64,000 nucleotides of DNA from Symbiodinium sp. CCMP2592 (Eukaryota > Sar > Dinophyceae > Suessiales > Symbiodiniaceae), in the NCBI GenBank assembly GCA_905221615.1, contig CAJNDT010006159.1, forward strand, positions 248,001-312,000, read 5' to 3'. Positions 655-62,305 of the stretch are shown in pieces. How positions within the stretch are numbered: the stretch's first letter is position 1; each line of letters opens with the position of its first letter. The notes beneath the pieces are model-generated. The model was not told where the DNA came from and made no database searches. It was given only the letters and a program-made list of their open reading frames with translations. A program made the position numbers and the translations under genes.

Positions 655-702
655 GATGCTTAGAGCAGAATTCCCAGCTGAACAGTCAGGCTTCCACGAA
701 GG

Positions 703-3700
703 ATGACAGACTACCAGGACCACTCACAGGTGAGGCTTCTTGGGAGAAGCCTCTCCTGTGTCCGATCCCTGTTGGCCAATGTCTCTTTTGTTAGTTGTGG
801 GATTCGCAGGTCTCACCGGTCTCATTGGAGACTGTATTTTCCATTTACGGAGTCGGAGACTCTGTATATTCCCAGGTGGCGATCTTGGGATCATCCTCCT
901 GTCATGCCTTGCCTTCACCCGACCTTTCAGTCGGCTTGGAATTGGCTGCACTATAAGAGGGCCTTCTTGAGATCCTTTGATTTGTCTCTGCCCTCTCCCT
1001 CTCTTTCAACTGCCTGTCCAAATGCGCCAAAAACGCGTATCGGTGGCTCTGGGTCGCGTGCTACGGACAGGCAGTTTCTCTTTTCCACTTCACCTGCGGC
1101 GCAAGCTCTTCCTTTTGCCGAGCCTTTGGGTTCTGTTGAGCGTCTCTGGTTTCTTTGGGCCCCGCCCTTTCCTCCTTGGGGTTTAGGCCCCTGTTGCCCT
1201 ATGGTTCTATTTAGGCCATTCTGCATTCAGCTGCTTGAGACAAGCGTGACCTGGTCTGGGGACCAGTTAGATCTCTGGCGCGCATTTGGCCCAGCAATTC
1301 CTTGGCTTTCTGTGGCATTTGAAGCGTTCTTTCGCACCTTGTGCGGTATTCTGCTTGTGGCCCTGCTTGCCTCATGCCATCATGTCCTGACTGGTAGGTG
1401 CATTCAGCGCAAAGCACCGATTTACCGTCGCCCTTCACACTTTGTCCTGCTAGTTAAGCCGGTTGGCAAGATAGGTTTTTCTTCGGGACTTTTGGATTGG
1501 ACCCCACATCCGTGCAGCAAGCAAAGAAGTGCTTCAAGGAAGACAAGGTCTTGCACCTTTGGGCTTAGGTCACGGCGAGCATTATCCTTCCTGATGTGGC
1601 TGATGCTTGGTTGCCTGCCTGTGCAGGTCTGGGCTGCTCCTCCTGACATCCACTCACTTGTTGATGCCTGTACTGACATCACACTTGGATTCCCGGAACA
1701 ATTCCCCTCTCCATCCGTGGGCTCTACCAACTGGCCTTTTCCGGACAGTGCGGCTAGCCGAACCGACGCTCGCCCCTCTTCAACAGCTTTTGGGAACCAT
1801 GGTCCTCGCATGATACATTGCTTGCTCATGGCGCCGGACTTTGTATCTGAGCAGATTGCTCTGTCGGTGGAAGCTCCGATTCACACCGACAAGTTGATAC
1901 ATCAGGTTGCAGCCGCATCCCGCCTCCTTTCCCGCTTGTCTACTGCACACCTTGTTCCGGTTAGGCCACAGCCGGAAGAGGGTTATGCGACCTTTCTCAT
2001 TTGCCCGAATTGGACCCAAAATGCCAGAAAGGTCACTGTGCTAATGGACTTTTGGGATTTAGGTGGGCCAACCTATGCTCGCCAGGTCGAACCGCAGGTT
2101 TCCTTCAATGACCTCATGGATGAAGCCAGGCGGCACGGACACGATCGGTTTGAAGCCTACTTACAGCTTCAGGCTAACAGTGTGACAACAGTAAGCGATG
2201 GAGCATGTTTCTCGTTCCTCCGTCCAGGCATGCTTCCGCATTGGTGTCCAGAAATCGACCGCTTTCTTCTTCAGCCGGATGACTGGGTAGATAGTCCTAG
2301 GTGTATGAGGCTTGAGCTTGATTCCGATCACTGGCTTTTCATCAGGGGGGACTTCACCAAGCTTCTTGCATACACTGTTGATTCAGAATATAGCCTCCAC
2401 GAGGTTATTGCTACCCAGATGCACCGCCGCTCCACACAAGTCAAGGTTCGCACGCCCGTCTCTGAAGCAGGTCTTGCAGTTGTGTTCGATGGATATCATG
2501 TTTCTAAGATCATTGCTGCAGCGCCGTGCCCGGAGCCAGTCTCCGACAGCATGCCAGACAAGGCTTTCGTGTTCCTTGATGCGAGACAAATGGGGCAAGG
2601 AATCCGATTTATCCTAGTGGATACACCTCTGCTCTCGCTTCAAGAGGCAGCAGAGTCCTTAACTCCACGTGTGACGCCGGGCTTCAGGGTTTTTGCCGAG
2701 CACCCTCGGCTGCAACCGGAAGGCCTTCATGTCCATAATGGGGATGTTTTGGCTATTGGCCTCGAGGCCGACCCGAATGCTCTTTTGGGCACAGCGTCTG
2801 CGGGTTCAGGACCGGCCTCTCCCCTTGCGCCAATACTCAGCAGCACTTTCGATGAACTGTCATGTGCAGCTGGCCCCGCGGCTGTTGCTAGACTATTTCC
2901 TGAGCGCCCCAGTGCTGAGGCAGATTCGCGCGTTGTGGGATTTGTTGTACTTGCACCAGCCCATACTCCGGAAAACGTCGAGGTGGAACTGCAACTGCCA
3001 TGTTCGGTTCATGCTGCCGGCCAAGCCCTCGCTCACGCTCGTGACGAGCGCCTTTCCCTACTGTTTGAGTATCTGGTTCCTGCTAAGCCCCAGCCAGATT
3101 TGGGATTCGTAGTTGTGCTTGCGGCGCCTCTTTGGGCGGAAACGAGTGTTTTCGTTCTAGTCGACTCGCGCTTGATCGACTCCCGCCTATTTCACTTTGT
3201 CTCAGGTGACAGACTCACCAGGGTTGACTTCCTGCGACAGATAGGCCTCATGGAGAGACCCGGCCTTCGCATACACATCCGCGGCTATCATGTTCCAGAA
3301 GCCGACACCCTGATTTTCGCGCAGGGGGACACGGTGACTATCCTGCCACCCGGCACACCTCTTGGCTTCATGCCTAGCCTGGAGGAGCTTTTGGGTACTC
3401 TAGGTGCTAAGGATGTTGTATTTCCGTCACTGCCAGGTCCAGCTCCCGCCGCCTTTGGTGTGCTATCAGATGAAGGTCTCAAAATCCATGCTGTTGACCT
3501 CTCTAAGGTGCAGTCAGGTGTGGCTTTCAAACAGGTGGTAGGCAGGGCTTTTGGGATACGACCTTTCAGCTGCCCTCTTCCGACCGGCCTCTCCCAAGTT
3601 CGCAATTTTGCGCACCTTGGACAGTGCTGCCAGGCGGTCTTTGTGGTAACTGAGGCCATCCCTCGCCGTATTGAGGCTGCCGATGATCATACCGGGCTGA

Positions 3701-4125
3701 TCATCTTGATTCTTGACCTGCGTGCCCTGATGCGAGGGTTTCATTGGCGCATCCATGAAGGCAACAGATTGCGCCTAGGACCTCTTGTTCAGGAGTTCTC
3801 GCAACATAAGCCTGCAGGTTATGAGGTCGTCATCACTGGGGGAACCTCTATAGACCTAGGCAATGAAACAGGCATTCAAATTCATCCTGGTTGCGTCGTC
3901 ACTGTCGACCATGATGCTCTGGCAGAACCGGTCACACCTGACATTGATTCAGCCGACATCTCGGATGGAGAAGATGAAGGTGAGGGCGAGGAATCCAGCT
4001 CTTCATCATCCTCTCCTTCTACGCCTCCTGCCATCGGACCGCGCAACCGCATCAGAAGCAGCCCTGCTGGGTCGCGGTCCCGCAGCAGAACACCCCCCCT
4101 CGCAATACCGGATCAGGTGTTATGA
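703..4125 (+). CDS. Large hypothetical protein with two internal copies of a repeated module
   Basis: An uninterrupted 1140-codon ORF, far too long to be chance. Residues about 1-290 are hydrophobic and irregular and may not be coding. A segment near 295-315 (SFLMWLMLGCLPVQVWA) looks like a signal peptide or membrane segment ending in a cleavage-like site. After it come two modules that resemble each other: about 370-480 (motif VRPQPEEGY, then CPNW, then VTVLMDFWD) and about 745-880 (AKPQPDLGF, then APLW, then VFVLVDSR). Each is followed by a Val/Ile-rich part. The C-terminus is acidic, then Ser-rich, then RS-like (SRSRSRTPP). The same module recurs antisense at 4208-5596 and again at 5584-6770. 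I recognise no known domain. It may be the N-terminal part of a LINE polyprotein or a separate gene family. Confidence 0.55.
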   Translation: MTDYQDHSQVRLLGRSLSCVRSLLANVSFVSCGIRRSHRSHWRLYFPFTESETLYIPRWRSWDHPPVMPCLHPTFQSAWNWLHYKRAFLRSFDLSLPSPSLSTACPNAPKTRIGGSGSRATDRQFLFSTSPAAQALPFAEPLGSVERLWFLWAPPFPPWGLGPCCPMVLFRPFCIQLLETSVTWSGDQLDLWRAFGPAIPWLSVAFEAFFRTLCGILLVALLASCHHVLTGRCIQRKAPIYRRPSHFVLLVKPVGKIGFSSGLLDWTPHPCSKQRSASRKTRSCTFGLRSRRALSFLMWLMLGCLPVQVWAAPPDIHSLVDACTDITLGFPEQFPSPSVGSTNWPFPDSAASRTDARPSSTAFGNHGPRMIHCLLMAPDFVSEQIALSVEAPIHTDKLIHQVAAASRLLSRLSTAHLVPVRPQPEEGYATFLICPNWTQNARKVTVLMDFWDLGGPTYARQVEPQVSFNDLMDEARRHGHDRFEAYLQLQANSVTTVSDGACFSFLRPGMLPHWCPEIDRFLLQPDDWVDSPRCMRLELDSDHWLFIRGDFTKLLAYTVDSEYSLHEVIATQMHRRSTQVKVRTPVSEAGLAVVFDGYHVSKIIAAAPCPEPVSDSMPDKAFVFLDARQMGQGIRFILVDTPLLSLQEAAESLTPRVTPGFRVFAEHPRLQPEGLHVHNGDVLAIGLEADPNALLGTASAGSGPASPLAPILSSTFDELSCAAGPAAVARLFPERPSAEADSRVVGFVVLAPAHTPENVEVELQLPCSVHAAGQALAHARDERLSLLFEYLVPAKPQPDLGFVVVLAAPLWAETSVFVLVDSRLIDSRLFHFVSGDRLTRVDFLRQIGLMERPGLRIHIRGYHVPEADTLIFAQGDTVTILPPGTPLGFMPSLEELLGTLGAKDVVFPSLPGPAPAAFGVLSDEGLKIHAVDLSKVQSGVAFKQVVGRAFGIRPFSCPLPTGLSQVRNFAHLGQCCQAVFVVTEAIPRRIEAADDHTGLIILILDLRALMRGFHWRIHEGNRLRLGPLVQEFSQHKPAGYEVVITGGTSIDLGNETGIQIHPGCVVTVDHDALAEPVTPDIDSADISDGEDEGEGEESSSSSSSPSTPPAIGPRNRIRSSPAGSRSRSRTPPLAIPDQVL

Positions 4126-7192: not shown

Positions 7193-7324
<132 letters not shown>

Positions 7325-7851
7325 TTATTTTATTGGACGCTGAGCGAGCGGGCTCTGCTCATTGCGGGCGTGTGAGACTGCCTTTGCACCTGAACAAAGG
7401 TCTGAGAGCAGAAATGCTAAGGGCCTGGGCCTGAAAGCGCTGAAACAGGCTACCGTGAAGAGAGCTACCCTACAAGCTACCTCAAAAGCCGGTTCATGCG
7501 TCTCAGGCGTGGGTGAGAAACCCTCCGTCACCCTCAGTGTGGACTATGGCGTCCCATGTCCACGGACCGATGATTGATGAGCCGTACCCCCTCGGGACCG
7601 TCACTCAGAGTGCCTGTTGCGTGGCGTCCCACTCATGGTCACTCTCAATCAAAGGCGACGGGCCGTAAGGTCGCAAAGGTGATGAGCATGTGGAACGGCC
7701 GCTCCGCTTTTGTGGGCAAGATTGCATCGGTGAACGATGTGGCACACCCTGGCGGTAAGCACACTGTGCCTAATAAGGCTAACCTTATTCGTAAGAGGCG
7801 TACTCCCCTCCAGAGGCCAGGCTTGCCGGCAATGGCTTGGGGGCCTCGGAC

Positions 7852-7884
7852 AACCCCCCATTCTCGAGCCGAGAATGGGGGGTT
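7852..7884. other. Perfect hairpin in the 3' UTR of LINE A
   Basis: A 15-bp perfect inverted repeat (AACCCCCCATTCTCG and its complement) around a 3-base AGC loop. A near-identical hairpin follows 26 bases later. Position between the stop codon and the tail suggests a transcript structure recognised by the reverse transcriptase or protecting the 3' end; this is inference. Confidence 0.8.
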
Positions 7885-7910
7885 GCAAAACCTTGATTTT
7901 TAGGCCTCGG

Positions 7911-7947
7911 ACAAACCCCCCTTCTCGAGCCGAGAATGGGGGTTTGT
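7911..7947. other. Second hairpin in the 3' UTR of LINE A
   Basis: A 17-bp stem with one mismatch and the same AGC loop as the hairpin at 7852-7884. The pair is preceded in both cases by GGCCTCGGAC, so the hairpin with its leader is a tandem duplication. Confidence 0.8.
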
Positions 7948-8223
7948 AAAGCCGATTTCAGCCATTGGTCAGCTGTGTTGCTGACAGGCGTTGCCTTTCT
8001 GGGAAAGCAGCGAGCGTTGCCCGACTAGCATGACAGGTATAGGCCGCTATTGCACACAAACGCTGAGTAGTGGAGCTACGTCAGCTGTACGACTTGAGCA
8101 GCAAAACTGAACAACAGCGTTCCTGCTCCCTGCCGTGTAGGCAGGTCGGTCCCACAGAGCCAGTAGGTCGCCCCCTTCCTGCAAGGGGAAGTAGGGGCCC
8201 CTGGCCTCAGGGGAACCCTCAGC

Positions 8224-11200
8224 TTAATCATCTGAAACTTGGACTGGCATAGGGCCAGCCTCCGCTGTGTGCGGTATTGAACCAAGTCGCACGAACAGCA
8301 CATAGCAGCCGTGGCGTGCCTGCCTGAGATCTGAATCTGAGGCCTGAACCGACGGACGACCATCGTCCGTGCTGAGCCAAGGTTGATCGGGGTTGCTCCT
8401 CCAGAGGGAGCGATAATGTCCACTGTGCGGGGTGTCACCTATGTGGAAGATACAGGACTGAACCCATCCTTTCTCTAGTTGTACGGAGCCCGTCGGGGCC
8501 CACTGCGAGAGCTGAAGGGGGTGGTGCAGACCAGTGACAGCATAGCTGAGCTTGCGGCCTTCAACAAATCGCGCCACTGTGAGAACCACCAGTCGTTGCT
8601 GCCCTCGAAAGGCGGTGTGCACCGGCTGGCCAGACCACCGAGAGAGCAGCTCCTGAAGTGCATGGGATCCACCTGTCGTTGGAGCTGGCAGCAAAGCGAG
8701 CGGACCTCCCGCATCGGTGACCTCAGTAGTGTTTACATCCCTGACTTCCCAGGGTCGTGCAATCGGAAAGGCCGTAATGCCTGCAAATAAGGCCACTAGA
8801 AACTCCGAAGCATCTTGTTGTTGGCCATCATAGCGCCAAGCGGGAGTAAGATGGCGAAGCGTGAAAGAGGCAGTCAGGGTGAAAGGAGAACCAGAGACAG
8901 AATCAGCCACTTCCTGATGGAGGGAGGTGCTTGCCCCTCCGTGCTCGTGCTCCAGCAAGATGCACGTCGGCACCAGGGCCGAAAGCGTTGAGTTAACATA
9001 GCAGTAGTTGGAGATGTTGCGCAGCGAGCGAGGAGCAGCGAGCGCGCCGTCCTTTGATTCTACTGTCCCTGACTTCGGTGGCAGGGGGCCTGCAGGCGTT
9101 GCCTGGCGAGTCTGGGGCGTTGCTCCAACAGCGGTGGTATCGTCCCGTGTGGGTGCGTTGCCTTGTGTCGTGCCAACCGCTGGCATGTACCTGCGTAACG
9201 GTCCGCCCTGGCAGCGGGAAAGTGCATGAACCAAGTCATAAAACAGAATCTGAAAAAGGATCGGACATTGTGCCGGATGCTGCCTCTTATCCGTAACAGG
9301 CTTGCGGCAGCACGGGCAAGGCATGCCCTTGACAAGGGTCAGGCCTGATTTGCTGCTCTGAGTTGCAGCTGTAGCGCCATGAGCCGCCCATTCAGGTTTG
9401 TGGGCCTGCCGGATGTGAGACTTGAGCTTGGTATTGTCCGGGGTCCAGAACCCACACAGCAAGCAATGTGACATAAGGTCCTGAGACTCATCAGATCGTC
9501 CGAGCTCCACAGCCGTGTGTGTTGTCAGAGTGTCATGCAAGCGCTGCTGCCTGGGATGCAATCTGGGCTGATGCTGCGAATCCAAGGGAGGGTGCGCCGC
9601 GTCATCCAGCTCCTGTAGCCTAGCTGGCTCCGAGCAGGCACCTGATAGCAAGTCCTTCATCTGAGGGAATTGCCTGTTGCAGGCCGCACACTTGGGGAGC
9701 CCTCCTACAGAGAGGGTGTGGGAGAAGCCTCGAGGGACATATCTGATGACCGAGCCTGGATGCTTGCGGGCCTGGTGGGTGCGAAGACCGACCTCAGTGT
9801 CGAAGGCCTGAGCACACGTTAGGCACACGAAGGACGGGGGGGCCTCCTGCTGTGATGTGTCCTTAGAAAGTTGCTGCAGAACGTCTGCATAACTAGTAGA
9901 GAGTGCCTCCGCCTGGAGAAGCGCGCGCTGGGTTAAAGAGATGTCCCCCGCAGGAGTTTTCCGCCGTCGAGCACCTAAGCGCTTGACACGATTGGCCTGT
10001 CGCGCCTGCAGCTTACGGACAGGGTCCATGATCTCATGGGAGGCGTAGAGGTCAGCCGTGGATATGTGTGTCAGGTGCGCTGGCTTGTTCAGGACAGCTC
10101 GAATTTTGCGAGCGTGCCAAGCCCGCAACAGTTTAGCTGTCTCTAGGGTCAAGCCCACATCCACCAATCCAGAGGCTACTGTGGCCCAGACAGTGCTATG
10201 CCAAATGTGCAACCGCGATGCAGGCCCCGCCGTTCGTCTGTTGTGAACGAAGCGGCGTACCTGCTGCAATTTCACATTGCCCTCCTGCAACCGGAACTTG
10301 AGAGTAGCCTTCTCGAAGTTGGAGTAGGAGAGCATGACGCCGAGATACTTAAAGGACGTCACCAGCGGAAAGCCCTCGTGAGACTTGGACTCTCCCAGTC
10401 TCCACATCTTATGGCGGGTTCCGTCAGGCGCGGTGCGCCAATAAGTGTGCTTGGAGATGGCGCGTTGCGCCTGTTGGCCCTCGAGTTTGACCATAACAGT
10501 GCATTTTGCACCGTTGACAGCAAATCCATGGCGACGGACCAACTGCAACAATTGCTCAATCAGAGCATGAGCGCGATCCAGGTCCTCCATTGAGTGGATG
10601 TCACGGTGAACCGTAAGGTCATCTGCGTAGCCCGTGAGGTAGTCCACCACGGCTCGAACCCCAACAAGAGCTATGAGCTCCCGGAAGATGGTGCCCGTAA
10701 GCATGGAAAAAAGTGTGGGGGCAAGCTTACACCCCTGTTTAATGCCCGCAGTGGACTGGACCGTGTCCTCTTCACCCTGGGTGCGAAACGTGTAAGCACT
10801 GCCAGCATGCAATGAGGCAACTAGGTCAATGAGGTCTTGCGGGACTCCCGCTTCCTGCAGTGTGCTAAGCAAGTCTGTTCTGCTCACCATGTCAAAGGCT
10901 TGTGACAAGTCTAGTGCCAAGCAGATGCCACCTACTAGCTGGGGACGAGTTCGTCCCGAGTGAAGCTGATGCCTGGTTCGTCGGGCCTCCTGGCAGTTAT
11001 TGCGTACCTGAGTGACATGACCAACGACCCTGCTCAAGGCATCTGAAAGACCGCGATGTGGCTGGTAGGCAAATTGTGGGAGACCCCGAAGATAGTCAGC
11101 CGTGTAGGGAGACAGCTGATCTCTACAAGCCCCCGCCAGGCCCTTGCCGTCTGGTCGAATGATGCCGAGGGGACGTAGATTGCCAGGCTTCGTGGCCGGC

Positions 11201-11538
11201 TTGTTAGGCTTTGGGATAAAACACAAGTCAGCATCCTTTAAGGGCGGCTGAAGTACCTCAGCAGCCGGCAATGGGCGTTGCCCCCGAGATTGCAGCGATG
11301 CTGCTAGCGCCTCTCCCGCAGCCGCCGAGCAGAGCCGCCAGGCAGCCGCCGGAGCAGAGCCTTGCGGTACCGCCTTGTGCGGTCTGATGGAGCCTATGTG
11401 CTTGGCCAGCAGACCAGCCGGGATTTCCGGCAGCGAGTCCACCTGGTGTGCGAGTGGCGGATGTCTGGCAAAGACCTGTTCCACGTGGTCTCTAAGCAGG
11501 CGGAGCTCAGAGGTAGAGTCCAACGGCAGACCATCCGG
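8224..11538 (-). CDS. LINE A polyprotein, downstream part: reverse transcriptase, zinc fingers, USP-like protease
   Basis: About 1100 codons after the TGA at 11539-11541, in the same frame as the endonuclease part. Residue numbers count from the TTG at 11523. RT about 95-400: LRPLGI (116), LDLSQAFD (204, motif A), GIKQGCKLAP (260, motif B), YADD (299, motif C), GFAVNGAKC (333), FKYLGV (391). Zinc fingers: C2H2 at 567-588, a C-x2-C finger at 612-630, C2H2 at 687-708, CCHC at 736-753. USP-like domain about 835-1080: NYCYVNS with the presumed nucleophile C841, QQDASEF (902), SGHYRSL with H1036, and STDDGRP (1051) followed by GCYVLFVRL. A TTG start here is unlikely; this is the rest of one polyprotein. 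The USP would hydrolyse ubiquitin or ubiquitin-like bonds, possibly to protect the element's own proteins (inference). Confidence 0.85.
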   Translation of the reverse strand, partial: PDGLPLDSTSELRLLRDHVEQVFARHPPLAHQVDSLPEIPAGLLAKHIGSIRPHKAVPQGSAPAAAWRLCSAAAGEALAASLQSRGQRPLPAAEVLQPPLKDADLCFIPKPNKPATKPGNLRPLGIIRPDGKGLAGACRDQLSPYTADYLRGLPQFAYQPHRGLSDALSRVVGHVTQVRNNCQEARRTRHQLHSGRTRPQLVGGICLALDLSQAFDMVSRTDLLSTLQEAGVPQDLIDLVASLHAGSAYTFRTQGEEDTVQSTAGIKQGCKLAPTLFSMLTGTIFRELIALVGVRAVVDYLTGYADDLTVHRDIHSMEDLDRAHALIEQLLQLVRRHGFAVNGAKCTVMVKLEGQQAQRAISKHTYWRTAPDGTRHKMWRLGESKSHEGFPLVTSFKYLGVMLSYSNFEKATLKFRLQEGNVKLQQVRRFVHNRRTAGPASRLHIWHSTVWATVASGLVDVGLTLETAKLLRAWHARKIRAVLNKPAHLTHISTADLYASHEIMDPVRKLQARQANRVKRLGARRRKTPAGDISLTQRALLQAEALSTSYADVLQQLSKDTSQQEAPPSFVCLTCAQAFDTEVGLRTHQARKHPGSVIRYVPRGFSHTLSVGGLPKCAACNRQFPQMKDLLSGACSEPARLQELDDAAHPPLDSQHQPRLHPRQQRLHDTLTTHTAVELGRSDESQDLMSHCLLCGFWTPDNTKLKSHIRQAHKPEWAAHGATAATQSSKSGLTLVKGMPCPCCRKPVTDKRQHPAQCPILFQILFYDLVHALSRCQGGPLRRYMPAVGTTQGNAPTRDDTTAVGATPQTRQATPAGPLPPKSGTVESKDGALAAPRSLRNISNYCYVNSTLSALVPTCILLEHEHGGASTSLHQEVADSVSGSPFTLTASFTLRHLTPAWRYDGQQQDASEFLVALFAGITAFPIARPWEVRDVNTTEVTDAGGPLALLPAPTTGGSHALQELLSRWSGQPVHTAFRGQQRLVVLTVARFVEGRKLSYAVTGLHHPLQLSQWAPTGSVQLEKGWVQSCIFHIGDTPHSGHYRSLWRSNPDQPWLSTDDGRPSVQASDSDLRQARHGCYVLFVRLGSIPHTAEAGPMPVQVSDD

Positions 11539-11541
11539 TCA
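11539..11541 (-). other. Single in-frame TGA interrupting the LINE A polyprotein
   Basis: Codon phase is identical on both sides (13140 and 11523 differ by a multiple of three). Five codons (CCG GAT GGT CTG CCG) follow before the TTG at 11523. No frameshift is needed to join the endonuclease and RT parts. Confidence 0.9.
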
Positions 11542-13140
11542 CTGAAGCTGTGCCTTAGTTTGGGGTTCCCAAGGTCGGAGCTTCTTTAAGGTCTTATGTG
11601 CGATGTAGGAATCGTGTCTGGCACACGCCTCATCGACCTCAGCCTGGAAAGCTCGGTGTCGTTCCTTCTTGGCTAAGTAGAGAGCCTGCTTATGCCATCG
11701 ATTCAGGTCCTCCAAAGACTGATCTAGGTCGGATAAGGTGGTTATGGAGTCCTCATGCAAAGAACGAATATGAGCGACTCGACTCCACATTCGCAGCGTC
11801 GCACGGTGCTGAGCAGTTTCAGGAGCTTGCTGAGGCCGTGGTTTGGGGAAAAACAGTGCAGAGGCCTCCAGCAGTACCTGATTAACTTCATCAGGCGTGT
11901 GAGTCCGAGAGGACAGACGCTGGCCCACCCAGTCTTGCATGCGACCGGCTATTGGCAGACCTGAACGGACAGCCGTCTCTAGAGCTTCCTTATGAAAGGT
12001 CGTGGAAGGACAAGTAGGCTTTGGCAGATTCCAGTGCTGGGTGGGTCTGAGTTGAGCCAAGACTGGAAGGTGGCCGCCCCTCTTCCATTTGCCGAGCTGA
12101 AGATCCTTGCACGGCCGAGACTGCTTTGCCAGGCCCTTGGCCGAGGCTTCTGAAGTGAGCAGGAAGTCAATTTGTGATCCCTGACCATTCAGGAAGAAAG
12201 TGTGACCTGCACCACTAGACCATGTGTTAAGAGCTACCAACCGATGGGAGGAGACTAAGGCTTGGAACGATTCATCCTGCATCTGAGTTTGCTCTGGCTT
12301 GGTGCTACACTGACCTACCAGACCCTCCTGCGGGGTCAGTCGAGCATTAAAGTCTCCTGCCAAGAGAAAAGTATCTCGCGCTGGAATGGCCCGTATCGCA
12401 GCCGACAGATCGCGGAGCAGGTGTGAGCGGTCATCCTTGTTCTGCTGTGGAGTCTTCTTAGAAGACCAGGCATGTTGGTAAACCGCTAGTACATGCACAC
12501 GAGCCCCAAGCCACGGGAAGATGACCTGAATGAGCCTTCCCCGGCGTTGCTCGCGCCATCTTATCTTCTGCTTGTCTATCTGCGGAGAGAGAAGAACCAT
12601 GACGCCGTCCGCTCGGCTTGTGTCGTGAACAGCCGGCTGCGTGGCAGCGCCTTGCTTGGGGCGTTGCCCTGAAGTGGCTTTACCTTTAGGTGCTCGAGCA
12701 GCCCCTTTTGTGGCGGAGCTTACGCAGTGCCAGCCTTCGACATCAAATTCTGTTGTCTCACTCCAGTGGGTTTCCTGAAGGACAAGAATGTCACAGACTG
12801 ACTTGGCCTCCGTGCGAAGCCATGTCTTCACTTCTGCCCATTGTTGCATGCCAAGGTGCCCTGCATTCCAGGAAAGAACACGAAGAGACTTGCTGGCACG
12901 ACCGCCTCTCGGGCGCGAGCGGAAACTGGCGGAGAAACCTGAGGGACCTGAAGGAGAAATCGTGGAGCTAGGCTGCACTGGGAGGGGGGGAGGGGAGGGG
13001 GGGGTGAGTCCACTGCGACGCAGATGTTCAGGCGTCAACGTACCATTCCGGTACGGGATGCTTTCTTGTGTTCTATGAACCTTATTGCAAGCCTTGCGAA
13101 AGGCCTTCTTGCGAATGCTCTCAAATGAATGCTGGTGCAT
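11539..13140 (-). CDS. LINE A polyprotein, upstream part: APE-type endonuclease
   Basis: 533 codons from ATG at 13140 to TGA at 11539-11541. A basic and Pro-rich leader (about 1-80) is followed by an apurinic-endonuclease-like fold: SWNAG (about 90), LQETHW, DGVMVLL, GRLIQV, GDFNARL, LNTWSSGAGHTFF, SQIDFLL and the catalytic-His region GGHLPVLAQL. This enzyme nicks target DNA to prime reverse transcription. The region after it is a helical linker to the RT. The stop sits in the linker, not in a catalytic motif, and the frame resumes at once, so it looks like a single recent nonsense change or a readthrough site. Confidence 0.85.
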   Translation of the reverse strand: MHQHSFESIRKKAFRKACNKVHRTQESIPYRNGTLTPEHLRRSGLTPPSPPPLPVQPSSTISPSGPSGFSASFRSRPRGGRASKSLRVLSWNAGHLGMQQWAEVKTWLRTEAKSVCDILVLQETHWSETTEFDVEGWHCVSSATKGAARAPKGKATSGQRPKQGAATQPAVHDTSRADGVMVLLSPQIDKQKIRWREQRRGRLIQVIFPWLGARVHVLAVYQHAWSSKKTPQQNKDDRSHLLRDLSAAIRAIPARDTFLLAGDFNARLTPQEGLVGQCSTKPEQTQMQDESFQALVSSHRLVALNTWSSGAGHTFFLNGQGSQIDFLLTSEASAKGLAKQSRPCKDLQLGKWKRGGHLPVLAQLRPTQHWNLPKPTCPSTTFHKEALETAVRSGLPIAGRMQDWVGQRLSSRTHTPDEVNQVLLEASALFFPKPRPQQAPETAQHRATLRMWSRVAHIRSLHEDSITTLSDLDQSLEDLNRWHKQALYLAKKERHRAFQAEVDEACARHDSYIAHKTLKKLRPWEPQTKAQLQ

Positions 13141-13443
13141 TGGCGATTGCGCCGTCCGCTAGTTTCGCCGGAAAGAGAGAACTCGAACCGACTCCTTTCA
13201 CCCTGCGGAAAAGGTGAAAACCACTACCGCTTACCTCATGCCAAGGTTGTATAACTGCAGACAGAGGTCCGGGAATTGGGACCCGGTAGATCACAGCGAC
13301 ACGCGGCTCCGGGAACAGCTATGGCTCAGTAAGAGGACGGTCCCTTAAGCTTCGCAGAAGGGGCACGTTGCGAGCCTCTAGCGTTGGTACCCAGAGCCTT
13401 GTTAGCAAAGCTACACAGCCTGCTGTGATCCATAGCGGCTACA
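13141..13443 (-). promoter_or_regulatory. 5' UTR / probable internal promoter region of LINE A
   Basis: About 300 bases before the ATG with no long ORF. The outer 290 bases (from about 13150) recur almost unchanged at 30370-30663 and 37897-38185, at the 5' ends of elements C and D, although the sequence that follows is unrelated. Such sharing suggests this segment alone carries what is needed for transcription or 5' end function. No specific promoter motif was recognised. Confidence 0.5.
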
Positions 13444-13706
<263 letters not shown>

Positions 13707-30339: not shown

Positions 30340-30663
30340 CGGCAGGAGAAAAGTACTGAGGCACAGTCGACGCGCCTTCCGCTAGTTTCGCCGGAAAGAG
30401 AGAACTCGATCCGACTCCCTTCACCCCGCGGAAAGGTGAGAACCCTACCACTTACCTCTTGCCAAGGTTGTATAACTGCAGACAGAGGCCCGGGAATTGG
30501 GACCCGGTAGAACACAGCGGCGCGCGGCTCCGGGAATAGCTATGGCTCAATAAGAGGACAGTCCCTTAAGCTTCGCAGAAGGGGGCCGTTGCGAGCCTCT
30601 AGCGTTGGTACCCAGAGCCTTGTTAGCAATGCTACACAGCCTGCTGTGATCCATAGCGGCTAC
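29582..30663 (-). mobile_element. Non-autonomous element C, 3' part lost in the gap
   Basis: Nearly identical over about 1.08 kb to 37108-38185 (element D). It begins with the A-type 5' segment (30663-30370) and carries its own ORF, with no endonuclease or RT sequence. Its 5' end starts inside the (TTG)n tail of element B. Confidence 0.8.
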
Positions 30664-30770: not shown

Positions 30771-30832
<62 letters not shown>

Positions 30833-31081: not shown

Positions 31082-31345
31082 GTGGGGAGGGGTCCCCTGA
31101 GGGAGGATCTCCACTCTTGGCCTTTGCTGCAGGGGGAGTATCTCCACCGTCGCTTTGCCCAGTGATTCTCTTTTTGGAAGGACGAGGAGGGGGAGTGATT
31201 CCACCCGAGGGGAGAAGCTCCACCTGATGTTCTCCTACTGTTGAAAAACCCCTGGGGAGAAACTCCACCAGCTGTACACACATGGCAAGGGGAGAAACTC
31301 CTCCGATTGTTGGGGAGAGTCTCCTCCTAAGGGAGCATCTCCGCA
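31082..31345 (-). repeat. Array of small inverted repeats in the 3' UTR of LINE B
   Basis: Eight or so units of the form GGGGAG-NNN-CTCC about 30 bases apart (for example GGGGAGAAACTCCACC), each able to form a 4-5 bp hairpin. The same GGAG-TAA-CTCC motif occurs twice within the coding part at 33050-33100. It occupies the place taken by the two long hairpins in element A. Confidence 0.7.
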
Positions 31346-34300
31346 AGGCTCGCTGGAAGAGCTCTTGCAGAGACATTACTCGGGAGATTAGCTACGTCCT
31401 GCGGCTCGTGAGAGACGGCGCTGCGAGCTAGGAAGATGACGTAGCTATTTTCTTGAAGCAGGGGATCTTCGAGGGTACAGGGACTAGGGGGGTGAGAGTC
31501 ATCACCAACATACCAGGCATCTGCTGTACGTACAGCTGCACGGTAATGGCCACTAGTGGACTCCATTCCTAGGTGAATGATCACTGCCTCTACTGTGTAG
31601 GTACAGAACGAAACTCGGGATGTGTGGTCCAGGAAGACAGGGATCTGGACTTGCTGTGGGATTGTGATGCGAGTGTGTTCCTTAGCTTCACCTGCGAATC
31701 TCGGCAAGGCTAAGCACACCTGCTGTGCAGCTTCTATGAGAGCACATGAGCGCTCCTGAGACGACCATGCCACTAGCATGTCCTGTAGGTTGGTCTTGAT
31801 CGCCGTGGCAAGATGAATGGGAGAGCCCCCTTCTTCGTCCACTAGCACGCCTTCCGGTACTGAGGCTCTAGTTTCCCACTGTCCAAATCTTGATGCAGAG
31901 AGATTCCGAAACACTTGCTGCAGGAACTCAGCAGAGTCGTGCTGGCCTCCGTCAAAGAGCCAGCCCATGGTGAGCTCCGAGAAGACTCTGTGTTCAGGGG
32001 TTATTCTCGCAAGCTGACTGATCCGGGATGCCTCTTGAAAAGTCGCCCCTGAAGGATCTGATAGCCAGTGGAGACACTGCAGACCTGAGTTGGCATAGCA
32101 GTGGTTGCGACTATTGGCTAGCAGGAGAAAGCCTTCCAGTCTAAACACGGGGTGAGGAATTCCTGGCGTTGCATCTGAAGGCTTCTGTGTGACTATCTTC
32201 GCCGATGCCGTGGACTTTGCTCGAGTATATTCGCGGGGCTGCTTGTTGAGCTGCTGGCGCGCTACCTCCTGCAGTACGTGCACCTGCAGTAATGGAACGC
32301 ACTGCTGAGCATGTCTACCCGGGGCATCCACACGAAGTTTGCAGTATCGACAGCTATCTCCTTTGTGGAAGAAGACCTTAAATTGATTGAGTCTTGGTTG
32401 GAGAGTTTTCTCCAGATTGGCCATCACCTCAGGATGCTGCTTGTTTAAATGCTGTTTGGCTCCTTTCTGGCCTACGAGGATCTGACCACAGAGTGCGCAG
32501 GGTTCCATCAGGTAATCATGGAACGCCGGATTTCGAGCGGCGCCTTCTGGATTGTCCTGGGCATCAGACTGTAGACTTTCTACGAGTGAGATCCGGTTCT
32601 GTGCTTCTAAGGGTAGCTCTTCCTGCTGTCTAAGCAAAAGCTCTACCCTAGGGCAGGGAGATGCTTCGACATGTTTGCGCAGATAAAACACTGTTCGGAA
32701 TGTTGCTCGACAGGCGATGCAAGTTGCTGACCCTGGCATTGAATGCAAAATAGGATCAAATTTGGGTCCTTTCAGGCACTGCTGAGAATCTGGGTGAGCC
32801 TTCTGCAGGTGGCGACGGAGTGCTCCGGTGCCAGAGAGACATGCTCCACATTCTCCGCAGGTCAGAAGCCTATCCTCCACATGGTGCGAGGAGAAGTCCG
32901 TGGAGAGGCCTTCCAATGCCTGGCTAACTGCCGCAGCACGCAACTTATAGTGTGGGAGAAGCTGGGGATCGGAGTGTTGCTGTCTCTTTATAAACTGGGT
33001 CATTCTCTTTTGCAGCTGCTCCTTCACGTGAGGAACCCGTAATCTCCGGAGTAACTCCTGGTTTGATTCCTTCGTTTCCTGGGAGTAACTCCGCAGGACG
33101 AATCTGAGTTGGTACATCATGTGTGAATGGAGCTTTTGCAATCCCTGCTGTGTCATCCCCACCACGTGAAGTGCATACAGAGCAGAGGCCCACGCAGTTA
33201 TTGTCCAAAGCGACAGACGACGTCTGTCTGATAAGACTCGGTGGTTCCGAACTGCATGGGCTACTTCTGACATTGCAAGCTTACTGGATGACAGCCGATG
33301 TTTGAGAGTCTTCATTTCATAGTCGTGATAAGAAAGAATGACCCCCAAGTATGGAACCTGATGGCGCAGCGATATCAGCCTGCCCGAGGGGAGTTCAACA
33401 TACTTCTCTCCCTCGACCTGGCGAAAGAGTTTCTTCCTAATGGTCGAGGCTGAGCCCCCTTGCAGCTGTAGCAGAATTGCTGACTTGGACGGATTGACCT
33501 TGAACCCAAGCTCTACCAGCTGATCCAGAAGCATGTCGCAGTACCCTAGTGCTGTCATGAGGCCGGCCGCAGAGGCGAAATGCGACTGGATCAAGCTATC
33601 GTCAGCGTACATTGTGAGGAGCTTCACTAGTTCTGCTGGGCTGATTTTCCCAGAGAGCTTCCTAAAGAGAAGCCATGATGCAAAGGCGAATAAAGAGGGT
33701 GCTAGCTTACATCCCTGCTTGATTCCCCTGCGTGTGGCTATCTCAAAGCTCTGATCGCTGGCTGTCATCTTGTACCAGGCTTTGATGTGGAGATGGCCTA
33801 CCACCTCTATCAGAAGAGGATCTGCTTGTTCGGCTTCCAGGGCCTCTCTTAGTCGCAGCCTGTTGACAGTGTCAAAGGCTTTGCTCATGTCCACGCTCAT
33901 GGTGAGACTGCCTCTGAGCTTGAGCCCCTGTTGTCCCTTACCTGCCGCCCTGGTGGTGAGGGCCTGTCTGAACCTGGCCTGGTCCACATGTGTGAGGGCC
34001 TTGCAGATAGCCTCCTCTGTGCCCCTGCCTGGGACAAAGCCGAACTGAGAGACGCCGGTCATTGCTAGCTGGAGGGTAGACTTGAGTCTCTTCCTCACGA
34101 GTCCGGCTAAGACCTTACCCTCAGGTGCTATCACCCCGACCGGACGGAGTGAGGTTGGTTTGTCTGGCTTCTTGGGAGGCTTTGGGAGCCAGGAGATCTG
34201 TGACGAGGTGACACTGTCCGAGAGCCTTCCTGCAGTGACTTCCCTATTAAGGGTGTCCGAGATTAGCCGGATTGCTTGGGGACCTAGGGAGCGCCAGGCT

Positions 34301-35193
34301 ACTACGGGAGGACTCTTTTTAGGAACCGCCTTGCCCAGCTTTATTGTTCCAAGCTGTTCTTGCACTTCTTGCTCAGTGATGTGCAGGCTGCCTTGTATCC
34401 CTGAAAGCGGAAAGTCATCCCCTGCTCCAAACAGGTCTAGGGAATATTCCTCTAATTGTCTTCTTTCTTCCTCAGCAGTAAGGAAGCGACCCTCAGAATC
34501 ACGAAGCTGAACTCTTTCCTGGGGTCTCCCCGACCTGAAGCGCTTGATTACCTTGTAAAGGGAATGACTCCCGTCCTGCTTGGACTTAAGCTCTGCCTGC
34601 TGGAGTTGTTCATCTATTTCCTGCCGCCGCCGCTCCTGCTTGTGACGCTTTGCTACCCTCGCCTGTGCACTTTGCTGGGAAAACGTGCACCAGCATCGGA
34701 ACACCATACGGATCTGCAGCTCGGGCAAGAACTCTGCTAAGACCTTGACTGCTAGTGGGAGTGAGCGCAACGCAGAGCGCTCTTCCCAGATGCTGAGATC
34801 TGATCTTTGTGCTGCTTCCTTTCTCTTGGGAAAGTGAGTCGCGAGGGCTGAGTTCATTGCCTGATGGAGACTCTGCCAGGTTTGGGGATGATCCTGAAGG
34901 AGGGAGTCTACCTCCCTGGCAAATGCCTGTATTTTCGGGGAACGGTGTCTGTAGCAGTCCTCCATTGCCTGCTGGTCATAGGGTTTTGAGGCTTGGGAGG
35001 AGTATCTCCTGCTGTGCCTCAGTTTACCAAGAAGGGGGAAATGCCTACTACCATCCCTCCAGGATGCAACTGGGAAGGTCCTTAGTGGCCGGCAAACCCT
35101 GGCGGGGCCTTGGGACTGTGCAATCCTGACAAACGAGAAGTCAATCTGTGAAACAGAGTTGCCTTGTTCGTGGGTGGCTGGTCTATGCACTCC
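31327..35193 (-). CDS. LINE B polyprotein, downstream part: end of EN, RT, zinc fingers, USP-like protease
   Basis: 1288 codons after the TAG at 35194. Numbering from the GTG at 35190: SQIDFSFV (14) and SRHFPLLG (48, catalytic-His region) finish the endonuclease. RT about 330-640: SLRPVGVI (347), VDMSKAFD (433, motif A), GIKQGCKLAPS (489, motif B), YADD (528, motif C), LGFKVNPSKS (561), PYLGVILSY (613). Four zinc fingers at 778-799, 824-846, 898-919 and 947-964, in the same order as in A. USP-like domain about 1020-1225: RNHCYANS with C1031, GGQHDSAEF (about 1081), SGHYRAAV with H1215, WYVGDDS, and NSYVIFLARS. All three catalytic boxes match element A. Confidence 0.88.
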   Translation of the reverse strand, partial: GVHRPATHEQGNSVSQIDFSFVRIAQSQGPARVCRPLRTFPVASWRDGSRHFPLLGKLRHSRRYSSQASKPYDQQAMEDCYRHRSPKIQAFAREVDSLLQDHPQTWQSLHQAMNSALATHFPKRKEAAQRSDLSIWEERSALRSLPLAVKVLAEFLPELQIRMVFRCWCTFSQQSAQARVAKRHKQERRRQEIDEQLQQAELKSKQDGSHSLYKVIKRFRSGRPQERVQLRDSEGRFLTAEEERRQLEEYSLDLFGAGDDFPLSGIQGSLHITEQEVQEQLGTIKLGKAVPKKSPPVVAWRSLGPQAIRLISDTLNREVTAGRLSDSVTSSQISWLPKPPKKPDKPTSLRPVGVIAPEGKVLAGLVRKRLKSTLQLAMTGVSQFGFVPGRGTEEAICKALTHVDQARFRQALTTRAAGKGQQGLKLRGSLTMSVDMSKAFDTVNRLRLREALEAEQADPLLIEVVGHLHIKAWYKMTASDQSFEIATRRGIKQGCKLAPSLFAFASWLLFRKLSGKISPAELVKLLTMYADDSLIQSHFASAAGLMTALGYCDMLLDQLVELGFKVNPSKSAILLQLQGGSASTIRKKLFRQVEGEKYVELPSGRLISLRHQVPYLGVILSYHDYEMKTLKHRLSSSKLAMSEVAHAVRNHRVLSDRRRLSLWTITAWASALYALHVVGMTQQGLQKLHSHMMYQLRFVLRSYSQETKESNQELLRRLRVPHVKEQLQKRMTQFIKRQQHSDPQLLPHYKLRAAAVSQALEGLSTDFSSHHVEDRLLTCGECGACLSGTGALRRHLQKAHPDSQQCLKGPKFDPILHSMPGSATCIACRATFRTVFYLRKHVEASPCPRVELLLRQQEELPLEAQNRISLVESLQSDAQDNPEGAARNPAFHDYLMEPCALCGQILVGQKGAKQHLNKQHPEVMANLEKTLQPRLNQFKVFFHKGDSCRYCKLRVDAPGRHAQQCVPLLQVHVLQEVARQQLNKQPREYTRAKSTASAKIVTQKPSDATPGIPHPVFRLEGFLLLANSRNHCYANSGLQCLHWLSDPSGATFQEASRISQLARITPEHRVFSELTMGWLFDGGQHDSAEFLQQVFRNLSASRFGQWETRASVPEGVLVDEEGGSPIHLATAIKTNLQDMLVAWSSQERSCALIEAAQQVCLALPRFAGEAKEHTRITIPQQVQIPVFLDHTSRVSFCTYTVEAVIIHLGMESTSGHYRAAVRTADAWYVGDDSHPPSPCTLEDPLLQENSYVIFLARSAVSHEPQDVANLPSNVSARALPASLAEMLP

Positions 35194-35196
35194 CTA

Positions 35197-35526
35197 AGTG
35201 TTGGTTGCGACTAGCTGGTGCTCCGACAGTAGGGTCTGGAGATCCTTAGATCCGCGATGCCCGAGTCTGCAAGCCTGGATCGTGCATGGCCCTACGTGTT
35301 TGTTGTCGGTCTTGAGCGAGGAGTTAAAGTCTCCTAGCACAAGGAGAGTGTTGCGATTGGGAACAGCTCGGATGGACTTACTTAGGGCGTGAAGGGTCTG
35401 CTTCCGGGTTTCCTTATTCTGAGCAACTGTCTCCTTAGAGCGCCAAACGTATTGATAGCAGCTGAAGACATCCAGTGAGATGCCGTTGCTCGGCACCCGG
35501 ACCTGGAGAACTCTTCCTGGAACAGC
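35197..35526 (-). CDS. LINE B polyprotein, middle endonuclease part
   Basis: Same frame as the parts on either side, bounded by TAG codons at 35527-35529 and 35194-35196. It reads GRVLQVRVPS, then FSCYQYVWRSKET, then TLLVLGDFNSSL (the GDFN catalytic motif), ending VATNT where element A has LNTWSSG, so the downstream stop most simply replaces a Trp codon (TGG to TAG). Confidence 0.75.
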
Positions 35527-35529
35527 CTA

Positions 35530-36054
35530 GTTGTAGCGAAGATCCTGTGACTTGCACAGCGTGGAGTGCACCATTATGAGGACCCCGGCTCCCTTCTCCC
35601 CTGTGGAACCAGAGCTGATCACGTGCCAGCCTGACTTGCTGAATTGCCAAGAGCCCCTCCAGTGTGTTTCCTGGATTGCTACCAGCTTCACATCCTGAAA
35701 TGCGGCACTTTGCAGTACGGAGAGTAACTCTTCCCAAACTGCTGTTGTAAGAGATCCTGCGTTCCAGGATAGATAGCTGAGATTCTTATCTTCTGTAAAT
35801 TTTGAAGGCCGAGTCCTTCTGCCGGGATTGGTGGGCTTTACATGTGCAGGAGCAACTCCAAGCTCTGTTGACGACATCGTCCTTCCCTTGTAGACCGCAC
35901 TACCTTCAAGCAGAGCTTTACGTGCTGCCCTTTGATAAGAGCGTTTACCCTTCCCTTTAGGAACGGGCTGATGCTTGGTCGAACCACTAGGCTGTTTCGC
36001 AGCACTCATGTTGAGTACGGCTCCTGTCGGCTTCGCAATACCGACAAACCTCAC
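35530..36054 (-). CDS. LINE B polyprotein, N-terminal endonuclease part
   Basis: Basic leader, then YLSWNAGSL, VAIQETHWRGSW, GWHVISS and GAGVLIMV, the first motifs of an APE-type endonuclease. The best start is the ATG at 36009 (MSAAKQPSG); the frame is open from a GTG at 36054. It ends at TAG 35527-35529, after which the same frame continues. Confidence 0.75.
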
Positions 36055-36193: not shown

Positions 36194-36196
36194 TTC

Positions 36197-36258
<62 letters not shown>
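36194..36258 (-). repeat. (CAA)n / (TTG)n tail of element D
   Basis: Pure CAA run of about 62 bases between the 5' end of B and the 3' end of D. On the minus strand it follows CGTCCAATAAA. Confidence 0.9.
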
Positions 36259-36259
<1 letters not shown>

Positions 36260-37333
36260 TTATTGGACGCTGAGCGAGCGGGCTCTGCTCATTGCGGGCG
36301 AGCAGAAACTTCGGAAGCGTGCCATCCCCGAGTGTGCCGTGAGCCAGCGCCACCGAGGTGAGCCATAAGCCAGCACCACTCCCTTAGAATCTGACCTGCC
36401 GACATTATTCTTATAGAGGTTACGCGGTCTTCGCCCGGCGGCCTTGTAAAGAAAAAGAAACAGACTGGCGCTTTGCGCGACGGGACTGCCCATGCGAGAA
36501 TCGCAAGTACCTCCTTCATCCGTTTCTGAGAACTACGACCGAAGTCAGGCCCCGAGGCCTCGCGTAAAACAAGCCAAAACGAACAGACCTAACAGAACCA
36601 ACAGAGAAGACCGCACAACCCCTATAGGATCCTCAGTGAAGGAAAAAGAGGAGCCGATGCTACAAACGTTAAAAGAGAAAGGGCCTAAGTCAAGAAGAGC
36701 AGTTCTGCAGACTGTACACAGCAGCAACAGCTCTTGGGCACCAGCCTCTAGGGGATAGGCCACAAGAAGTTGACTTCAGTTAGAAAGGCGTTGCCCGTTT
36801 TTACGCGAGCGATGCCCGACTCCTAACGTCCGTGACAGCCCGACTCACAAAGTCGTCGTCATGTAGCCTCCGTCACCCTCAGTGTGAGTCATTGCGTCCA
36901 ATACTCACGAACTGGCAGCCGGTGGGTCGTACTCAGAAGAGCCGTCTCCCAGAGTTCCCGTCTAGTGGCGTCCCACACTAGGTAACTCCCGACTACCAGC
37001 GATGGGCCGTACGGATAATTCGTCGTCAAGCAAAAACACGTGGGCCGTCACTCCTAGCACTGCCTGACCCCGTCGGTAACAGGACAGTAACGAACACACC
37101 TGGGAGGGCCGTAGCCCGACACCCATAGCACAGCAAGCGCGTCCGCTTAACGACTGTACCCAGATGTGACGTGGAGCCGTACCAGGTAGACACCGTGCTG
37201 GAACTGAAGACGTTGGCCAACGCTGCTGAACCTGAGTCCCCAGTGTCCCAATCTGCGCCTTGTCTTGTAGACAAGTCTGGCCCGGCGGCCCCCGAGAGGC
37301 CTCCCCCTCAAGAGAGGATAGCCCCTCTAGGCC

Positions 37334-37864: not shown

Positions 37865-38185
37865 CGGCAGGAGAAAAGTACTGAGGCACAGTCGACGCGC
37901 CTTCCGCTAGTTTCGCCGGACAGAGAGAACTCGATCCGACTCCCTTCACCCCGCGGAAAGGTGAGAACCCTACCGCTTACCTCTTGCCAAGGTTGTATAA
38001 CTGCAGACAGAGGCCCGGGAATTGGGACCCGGTAGAACACAGCGGCGCGCGGCTCCGGGAATAGCTATGGCTCAAGAGGACAGTCCCTTAAGCTTCGCAG
38101 AAGGGGGCCGTTGCGAGCCTCTAGCGTTGGTACCCAGAGCCTTGTTAGCAATGCTACACAGCCTGCTGTGATCCATAGCGGCTAC

Positions 38186-59887: not shown

Positions 59888-60809
59888 ACAGGACACGGTG
59901 AGCTACGCACCTTGCTGTTGGACACCCTTCTTGAGCATTTTGAGACTATGCCTCCCAAACATGTGCTCAGCCTGCAAACACAGATATCTGACCAAGCTGT
60001 ACCAAGAGTGCCCCCGATGAACAAAGAGGTCCTCTTCGGTGACACACCTCTTGGTTTTACATGGCAACACCTGTTCCAATTGCGCACAACCAAGGTGCAG
60101 CTCTTGCCTTGGCAAGATCTGGTGCGACATTCTGCCCTAAGGCAAGAAGCTGACTTGGCCAATCGTGTGACGCTTGCTATGCAACTTGCTGTGTCCGATG
60201 GGCATTGCGGCATTCTGTGCTTCACGGACGGCTCTTTTACGCCGGCCTCTCAGACTGTTGGCGCTTTTGCAGGATGGGCCTGCATCTTTGTCGATACGAA
60301 GTCTGGGCAGGTTGGTGCAGGTTTTGGGAGAGTGCCTGACTGGCTGCTCGGTGATAAAGAACAATTGTCTGCCTATACTGCAGAATGTTTTGCCCTCACG
60401 ATCGCAGCAGTCGTTTCGTGGCTGGTCTTTCCCCGACTCCACGGTCACATTTTTCTCCGATTGCATATCAGCCCTGAGGGGCGCGGAGGGCAAATATGTT
60501 TGCCAGCCTGGAGGGTGTGCACAAACTATGAGTCATTCCTTCGATCTCCGGAGAGGCCTTTGCGTTGCTGGGGATATGTTTGTATATGTTCCCGGACATC
60601 AGGGCTGCTTCTTCAACGAGGTAGCAGACCGCTTCGCCAAGGCCGGCTCTCAAATCGAAGGGGTTGCTGACCTCCTCAGCCTCCCAGAAGAAAGCCTCTG
60701 TTTTTGGCTGGCATGTGCTCATCTGTGCTCTACCATGGGCGGTGACTGTACTCCGACAATTGAAAGGCGACATTGCCCTTCCACCTTCAGGCGCGTCCGA
60801 TTTGGGTGA
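59888..60809 (+). pseudogene. RNase H-like domain of LINE F, frameshifted
   Basis: The first frame (to about 60440) carries CFTDGSF (Asp at about 60227) and SAYTAECFAL (Glu). After a shift of frame near 60440 the next frame gives TFFSDCISAL (Asp), then FVYVPGHQGCFFNEVADRF, the His and last Asp region. All four acidic positions of a type I RNase H can be read, in order and at normal spacing. It would remove the RNA strand of the cDNA hybrid. A further frameshift near 60740 joins it to the endonuclease frame. The start at 59912 is a TTG and not trustworthy; the frame opens after TGA 59885. Confidence 0.65.
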
Positions 60810-61680: not shown

Positions 61681-61689
61681 TCATGGTAT

Positions 61690-62296: not shown

Positions 62297-62305
62297 TTAC
62301 ACAAG

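Follow-up and report, generated by a model that had tools for sequence, protein, structure and literature searches.

A stretch of 64,000 nucleotides from the genome of Symbiodinium sp. CCMP2592 (contig CAJNDT010006159.1, positions 248,001 to 312,000 of the forward strand; hereafter the window) raises the question of why a retrotransposon should encode a ubiquitin-specific protease (USP). The element concerned, referred to as LINE A, is a long interspersed nuclear element (LINE), i.e., a non-long-terminal-repeat (non-LTR) retrotransposon of the apurinic/apyrimidinic (AP) endonuclease type, and its coding region closes with a predicted USP of peptidase family C19. The best overall explanation, to which a probability of about 0.6 is given, is that the LINE polyprotein ends in a genuine and probably active USP that acts in cis to protect the element's own products.

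LINE A lies on the minus strand, where a single TGA divides one reading phase into two frames, 13158-11539 and 11538-8224. From the start Met (13140-13138) the coding region runs through an AP-type endonuclease domain (PF03372, 12145..12876, Pfam E 1.4e-13), the in-frame TGA (11539..11541), a reverse transcriptase (RT) domain (PF00078, 10333..11217, Pfam E 9.7e-24), four CxxC-led zinc-finger motifs (9265..9831), and the USP domain (8275..9045), which was delimited by profile, a 16-row alignment, and predicted fold. The 5' untranslated region (13141..13442) begins AGCCGCTATGGATCAC directly after a microsatellite, a junction that is identical at loci L039 and L040, and the stop codon (8224-8226) with the 3' untranslated region occupies 7324..8226. 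The original prediction had described one continuous open frame with endonuclease, RT, and four zinc fingers ahead of the USP. Endonuclease and RT are as described, but the TGA splits them, and the fingers were recognized by eye; Pfam zinc-finger models gave only matches below the cut-off on this frame. In the intact sister copy L039 (contig C5148) a residue stands at the position of the TGA, and AP endonuclease, RT, and the Pfam UCH domain are matched in a single coding unit of 1646 amino acids; relative to that copy, the window copy lacks four residues in zinc finger 2 and has two more in the USP.

The identity of the C-terminal domain rests on several lines of evidence. In a profile check set beforehand, UCH (PF00443) matched the translation of 8227-9120 alone with 34.3 bits (E 2.4e-8), and it scored 28.5 bits within the whole 1104-aa LINE A frame, in both cases above the cut-off of 23.9; other copies scored 26.0 (L039), 43.4 (L042), and 72.8 bits (L044), and LINE B, a second and distantly related LINE in the window, scored 43.3. 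The motifs claimed for the domain were found where they had been placed: NYCYVNS at 9009-8989, QQDASEF at 8820-8800, SGHYRSL at 8424-8404, and STDDG at 8373-8359. Together with the oxyanion Asn (9016-9018), they supply the catalytic Cys codon (9001-9003), the QQD-box Gln, Asp, and Glu (8818-8820, 8812-8814, and 8803-8805), the His codon (8416-8418), and two Asp codons after the His (8365-8367 and 8362-8364), all on the minus strand. Across the alignment of 16 USP rows, N35, C40, and H235 are invariant and D252/D253 are present at 90% or more; the Asp and Glu of the QQD box, whose acidic side chains presumably bind the arginines in the tail of ubiquitin, are also invariant. A larger set of 34 rows with a USP leaves 28 of LINE type once L001, L004, L005, L007, L043, and L046 are set aside (two of these, the public proteins P0001 and P0002, are C-terminal pieces in which no RT match reached the required length), and in these the Cys and oxyanion Asn are kept in 25 of the 25 rows reaching those columns, the His in 27 of 27, and the second Asp in 25 of 26.

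A single-sequence search of solved structures gave weak matches to USP2 and USP14 (E about 0.0045). The profile of 16 rows matched RTs with one part, including L1 ORF2p (1.2e-22; L1 7e-22 to 1.6e-21), and USP36, USP35, USP12, USP46, and USP2 with the C-terminal part (1e-10 to 7e-9). The models predicted for LINE A and LINE B both have the USP variant of the papain-like fold with Cys, His, and Asp at the family positions, which upholds the expectation of a papain-like triad. The best Foldseek row for the LINE A model is USP35, solved with ubiquitin, and the predicted fold resembles USP30, USP35, USP46, USP12, and USP2, with 13-24% identity among the matches listed. It is almost certain that the domain has a genuine USP fold and belongs to the LINE, and enzymatic activity is predicted with high, if somewhat lower, confidence. 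A chance match to short motifs is ruled out by the Pfam score, the predicted fold, and the selection described below.

The architecture is also not a one-off. A genome search with the window USP gave at least 132 matches, the number scored out of 1903 candidates; some of them are fragments of the same copy, and eight have 32-33% identity. Eight of the 132 fall within an open frame whose length is exactly 1646 aa. Among the 30 best-scoring loci, the 888-nt USP coding stretch is identical to that of L039 in 17, one of them being L039's own place, and differs by one base in 10 and by two in 2; the window copy has one mismatch and 6 gap positions. Such near-identical copies indicate that the family moved, or was duplicated, recently, and L023 and L028, with common flanks, are one duplicated place. 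The corresponding search with the RT yielded 131 matches (129 of 3213 candidates scored), from which 99 places at 85% identity or more were retained, 30 at 55-56% and 2 second pieces of counted copies being dropped. When these were paired with all USP places except the eight at 32-33% identity, 86 of the 99 were followed within 6 kb, on the same strand, by a USP match, the median gap being 1216 nt. A host gene lying beside a LINE is ruled out by this near-constant spacing and by the single frames. The one copy fetched from the 55-56% RT family (L048) carries a USP, the domain order is kept in L044 (2693 aa) and L045 (2093 aa), and USPs also occur in LINE families with an RT identity to LINE A of 29-56%.

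Selection was estimated by the Nei-Gojobori method from two pairs of copies, with ratios that are rough because several dS values exceed 1 (saturated) and one is undefined. Between L039 and L040, whose proteins are 84% identical, the USP has dS 1.21 and dN 0.134, a ratio of 0.11, compared to 0.04 for the RT, 0.02 for the endonuclease, and 0.45 for the 45-codon linker just before the USP; between L041 and L042 the ratios are 0.083 for the USP and 0.036 for the RT. The clear contrast between USP and linker indicates constraint, and by these estimates the USP is under purifying selection, although more weakly than the RT.

Related sequences also occur in public databases, and the minority with an organism name are from Symbiodinium species. 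The window USP found 4 public proteins (7999 candidates scored) and the L042 USP found 3, while the L039 RT, with 8000 candidates scored, found 37 at 1e-10; a precomputed UCH annotation exists for 11 of these 37. Some family sequences are already in databases as hypothetical or RT proteins. The USP profile built in this study matched 22 of the 37 at 1e-3, and 17 of them over at least 180 profile positions, where E refers to the small set searched and P0005, P0009, and P0012 were seed members. USP and RT distances among 26 proteins are correlated (r 0.89; 0 of 2000 permutations as high), with r inflated by four near-duplicate pairs. In a USP tree of 26 of the 34 rows (the near-copies or fragments P0003, P0006, P0015, P0017, P0018, P0032, P0038, and P0039 were dropped), 20 LINE rows and the unplaced L005 are separated from the rest by a branch (support 80/71) that is present in 84% of bootstrap trees, and three Helitron-like USPs form their own clade (99/99); the only USPs from outside LINEs and Helitron-like elements in this tree are two genomic rows of unknown context. 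A topology with the 20 LINE USPs as one clade against 6 others, L005 lying outside, was not rejected (p 0.069). This tree suits a single capture by LINEs without proving it. Judged from the sequences compared, the USP is an old component, integral to a set of LINE families in this genome.

Several observations weigh against an active and generally retained USP. The UCH scores of LINE A's own family are modest (26-34 bits), those of P0001 (19.1) and P0003 (20.7) fall below the 23.9 cut-off, and P0001 diverges from the family after the His box and does not have the Asp. No CxxC zinc pair was seen by eye in residues 16-298 of the USP translation; such a pair in the finger subdomain is common in USPs but not defining, and a domain without it might have altered ubiquitin binding. 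The USP evolves faster than the RT and endonuclease in L039/L040 and than the RT in L041/L042. Thirteen of the 99 RT places have no USP match within 6 kb, the single one inspected running into N. On an RT tree of 42 rows, three near-copies among the 45 having been dropped, the rows with a USP are scattered, with 14 changes against a shuffled mean of 14.1. Many public records stop before the USP, which explains part of the scatter, but P0035 and P0040 continue for 589 and 616 residues after the RT without a USP profile match, and in some cases the domain has therefore really been lost or was never there. Pieces of a third LINE at window 60625-63983 (plus strand; endonuclease 9.2e-8, RT piece 3.6e-5 and below the cut-off), which is frame-broken and has WADD instead of YADD, gave no match in a six-frame USP profile search of the 9 kb fetched around and beyond 60625 (L047). 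That every LINE here has a USP is thereby ruled out; the domain marks some LINEs, not all, and the genome's LINEs can do without it. Neither a single gain of the USP nor its universal retention is proved.

Catalysis, substrate, and benefit are what a mechanism would have to add to the architecture, predicted fold, conserved active site, selection, and near-identical copies described above. LINE proteins usually bind their own RNA in cis, and the translated polyprotein of LINE A would do the same. Host E3 ligases would ubiquitylate the polyprotein or the ribonucleoprotein (RNP) for proteasomal removal, the tethered USP would strip the ubiquitin chains from it, and the RNP would survive to reach T/G-rich microsatellites and perform target-primed reverse transcription there. 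With such action in cis, an element whose USP is dead would produce fewer descendants, and the purifying selection would follow from this; a cis advantage would likewise explain retention in propagating families. The authors of a study of Helitrons with a different deubiquitinase, VTD, inferred the same role in the passages cited (PMC9741609), which also favors this reading. The odds that the USP mainly protects the element's own protein or RNP are nevertheless put at about even. The original prediction had suggested RNP stabilization or the removal of histone or defense tags, and a role of this kind is made more plausible, though not demonstrated, by the purifying selection and by the existence of other mobile elements that carry deubiquitinases.

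The fusion of the USP to an endonuclease-RT protein that works at the target would also suit an enzyme that clears ubiquitin from chromatin or repair proteins (H2A/H2B, PCNA, FANCD2-like) so that target-primed reverse transcription finishes. The LINE B model matches the SAGA Ubp8 and USP1-FANCD2 complex structures, but no better than many other USPs, and the structural matches single out no substrate class. A role in DNA repair was proposed by Bao and colleagues for transposon Ulp1 and OTU domains (in the section concerned of PMC2836005), while the histone version is weakened by the histone deficit of dinoflagellate nuclei, as described in the part cited of PMC6723414; action at the target is a serious alternative, though the less likely one. 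Less likely again, but still a serious alternative, is action on another ubiquitin-like modifier (NEDD8, SUMO, Fubi, or an ISG15-like protein), for example to inactivate cullin ligases. The predicted fold does match USP18 (with ISG15) and USP36 (with Fubi), and Ulp1-type proteases are reported on other LINEs in the relevant passage of PMC4640811, but the invariant QQD Asp and Glu in all 16 rows and the ubiquitin-bound USP35 as best structural row weigh, though not decisively, in favor of ubiquitin itself.

Viral papain-like proteases process their own polyproteins, and the position of the USP within a long polyprotein would allow it to free, for example, the endonuclease-RT part; to our knowledge, no USP is a polyprotein-processing enzyme. 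In LINE A proteins a PRGG site immediately precedes the endonuclease (residue 83 of L039), and a similar one stands at residue 84 of P0026. However, [LIVMFRKP]RGG occurs in only 4 of 12 proteins (L039, L040, P0026, and P0037) and is absent from L042, L044, L045, LINE B, P0005, P0011, P0012, and P0036. Neither an RGG-type self-cleavage site common to all families nor any of the six ubiquitin words tried was found in the polyproteins. Self-processing is improbable as a general account, and unlikely in LINE A, where PRGG stands before the endonuclease. That the USP is a passenger, i.e., a captured host exon or assembly artifact with no role for the element, would fit the stop and small indels of the window copy, but this is contradicted by the repetition of the architecture on many contigs and in independent public records, by purifying selection with a conserved active site, and by USPs in LINE families with RTs as little as 29% and at most 56% identical to that of LINE A; its probability is close to nil.

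A LINE-borne USP has partial precedents. SymbioLINE-Dnmt and SymbioDIRS-Dnmt3 are retrotransposons that have captured a regulatory enzyme of the host, which is under purifying selection, and they number hundreds of copies (de Mendoza 2018, PMC5890265, as cited in part). Like LINE A, SymbioLINE-Dnmt is a Symbiodinium LINE with a host enzyme, but the one captured there is a DNA methyltransferase that mostly has an upstream open reading frame of its own, whereas the USP is fused to the C-terminus of the endonuclease-RT protein. The main text of that paper has no words beginning with ubiquitin, protease, or peptidase, and no methyltransferase domain was found in the frames scanned with Pfam, a scan that did not extend to regions upstream of the LINEs. 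The NeSL and Utopia-1_TSP LINEs combine an RT protein with a Ulp1-like protease (PMC4640811), a cysteine protease of the ubiquitin-like-modifier type as in LINE A; in the passage cited, however, the protease is Ulp1-like and N-terminal, the hosts are nematodes, and Utopia has a restriction-like endonuclease, compared to a C-terminal USP and AP endonuclease in LINE A. Helitrons and Helentrons also encode deubiquitinases, but as far as PMC9741609 is cited here they are rolling-circle DNA transposons of animals with VTD or OTU folds rather than USPs. Ginger1 transposons carry OTU or Ulp1 domains, and the closest precedent for a mobile element with a USP-class domain is a Trichomonas transposase_11 protein that carries peptidase C19; these are DNA transposases with no RT, and the portion of PMC2836005 concerned names a single protein for C19. 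Cellular USPs (USP30, USP35, USP46, USP12, and USP2) share the predicted fold and active-site order with LINE A and differ in identity, in the CxxC zinc pair, and in not being borne by a retrotransposon.

No USP on a LINE was found among the matches listed in a word search of open-licence PubMed Central (Repbase and subscription papers lie outside it), and the claim that the combination was undescribed is not contradicted to that extent. The USP class would join the Ulp1, OTU, and VTD domains known on mobile elements. Accessory domains reveal host processes that a mobile element must beat, and the retention of a USP by selection in LINEs that were active recently suggests that retrotransposons are controlled through the ubiquitin system. 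We know of little work on silencing in the dinoflagellate lineage. The LINE USP is a directly testable enzyme, and caution is needed with USP-annotated dinoflagellate genes, which may be transposon proteins. A wider reading can be put forward only tentatively: deubiquitination would be ancestral and near-obligatory for a large group of dinoflagellate LINEs, with one capture co-inherited with the RT on nearly all deep branches sampled (P0035 excepted) and a second USP lineage, N-terminal, in Helitron-like elements of this genome. Ubiquitin-dependent destruction would then be a main host barrier to mobile DNA in these algae, answered by two unrelated element classes, and much of the genome's apparent richness in USP genes would be mobile.

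The insertion setting of LINE A is also distinctive. Its 5' end adjoins a (TTG)n T/G trinucleotide microsatellite of 213 nt (13443..13655), and a (TTG)n microsatellite of 129 nt lies at its 3' end (7194..7323), both given for the minus strand. Of 29 loci (L010-L038), 23 have a TTG run of at least 18 nt located 0.9-1.03 kb past the end of the open reading frame, i.e., they are dispersed copies with a common 3' end and a simple tail. For the 16 loci with exactly located last bases (13 without an exact end match were skipped), the next 80 nt are at least 80% T+G in 12, compared to 0.4% of window 80-mers. The 5' ends of L039 and L040 likewise adjoin T/G-rich repeats, the tail of L032 runs into the 5' end of another copy (head to tail), and LINE B also lies between TTG repeats (window 30771-30830 and 36196-36258); L042 is instead preceded by GGA/GTA repeats. 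A self-added tail would account for the 3' side alone, so the T/G repeats at the 5' side favor targeting, and copies of these LINEs appear, from their flanks, to prefer T/G trinucleotide microsatellites for insertion. Within such repeats, target-site duplications are difficult to delimit. At window 7842-7950, in LINE A's 3' untranslated region, a 48-nt sequence occurs twice in near-identical form (92%) with an inverted match between the two, possibly as an RT recognition structure.

LINE B has a 1288-aa frame at 31327..35193 on the minus strand (RT E 1.7e-21, UCH E 4.5e-11), with the RT at 33337-34173, CxxC motifs also in frame, and the C-terminal USP at 31432-32121; an endonuclease-like part in the same frame, with in-frame stops, occupies approximately 35194..35780 and was recognized by eye from SWNAG, QETHW, and GDFNSS. 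USPs are N-terminal in the frames of L043 (1813 aa), L004, and L046. L043 matches a helicase (PF13604, 1.3e-17) and contains GRPHVHALFWL, which we take to be a HUH-like motif, and it is probably a Helitron-like element with a USP. Contig C994 has three successive pairs of 593-aa and 1837-aa USP frames. Elsewhere in the window, a 1147-codon open frame at 682-4125 (plus strand) had no Pfam match at 0.01. The segments 30372-30663, 37897-38185, 36259-36300, and 13653-13696 correspond to the extremities of LINE A only, either its first 294 nt (93%) or its last 42-44 nt (100%). Window 38185-36259 has the appearance of a 1.9-kb non-autonomous element whose ends are those of LINE A and whose interior differs.

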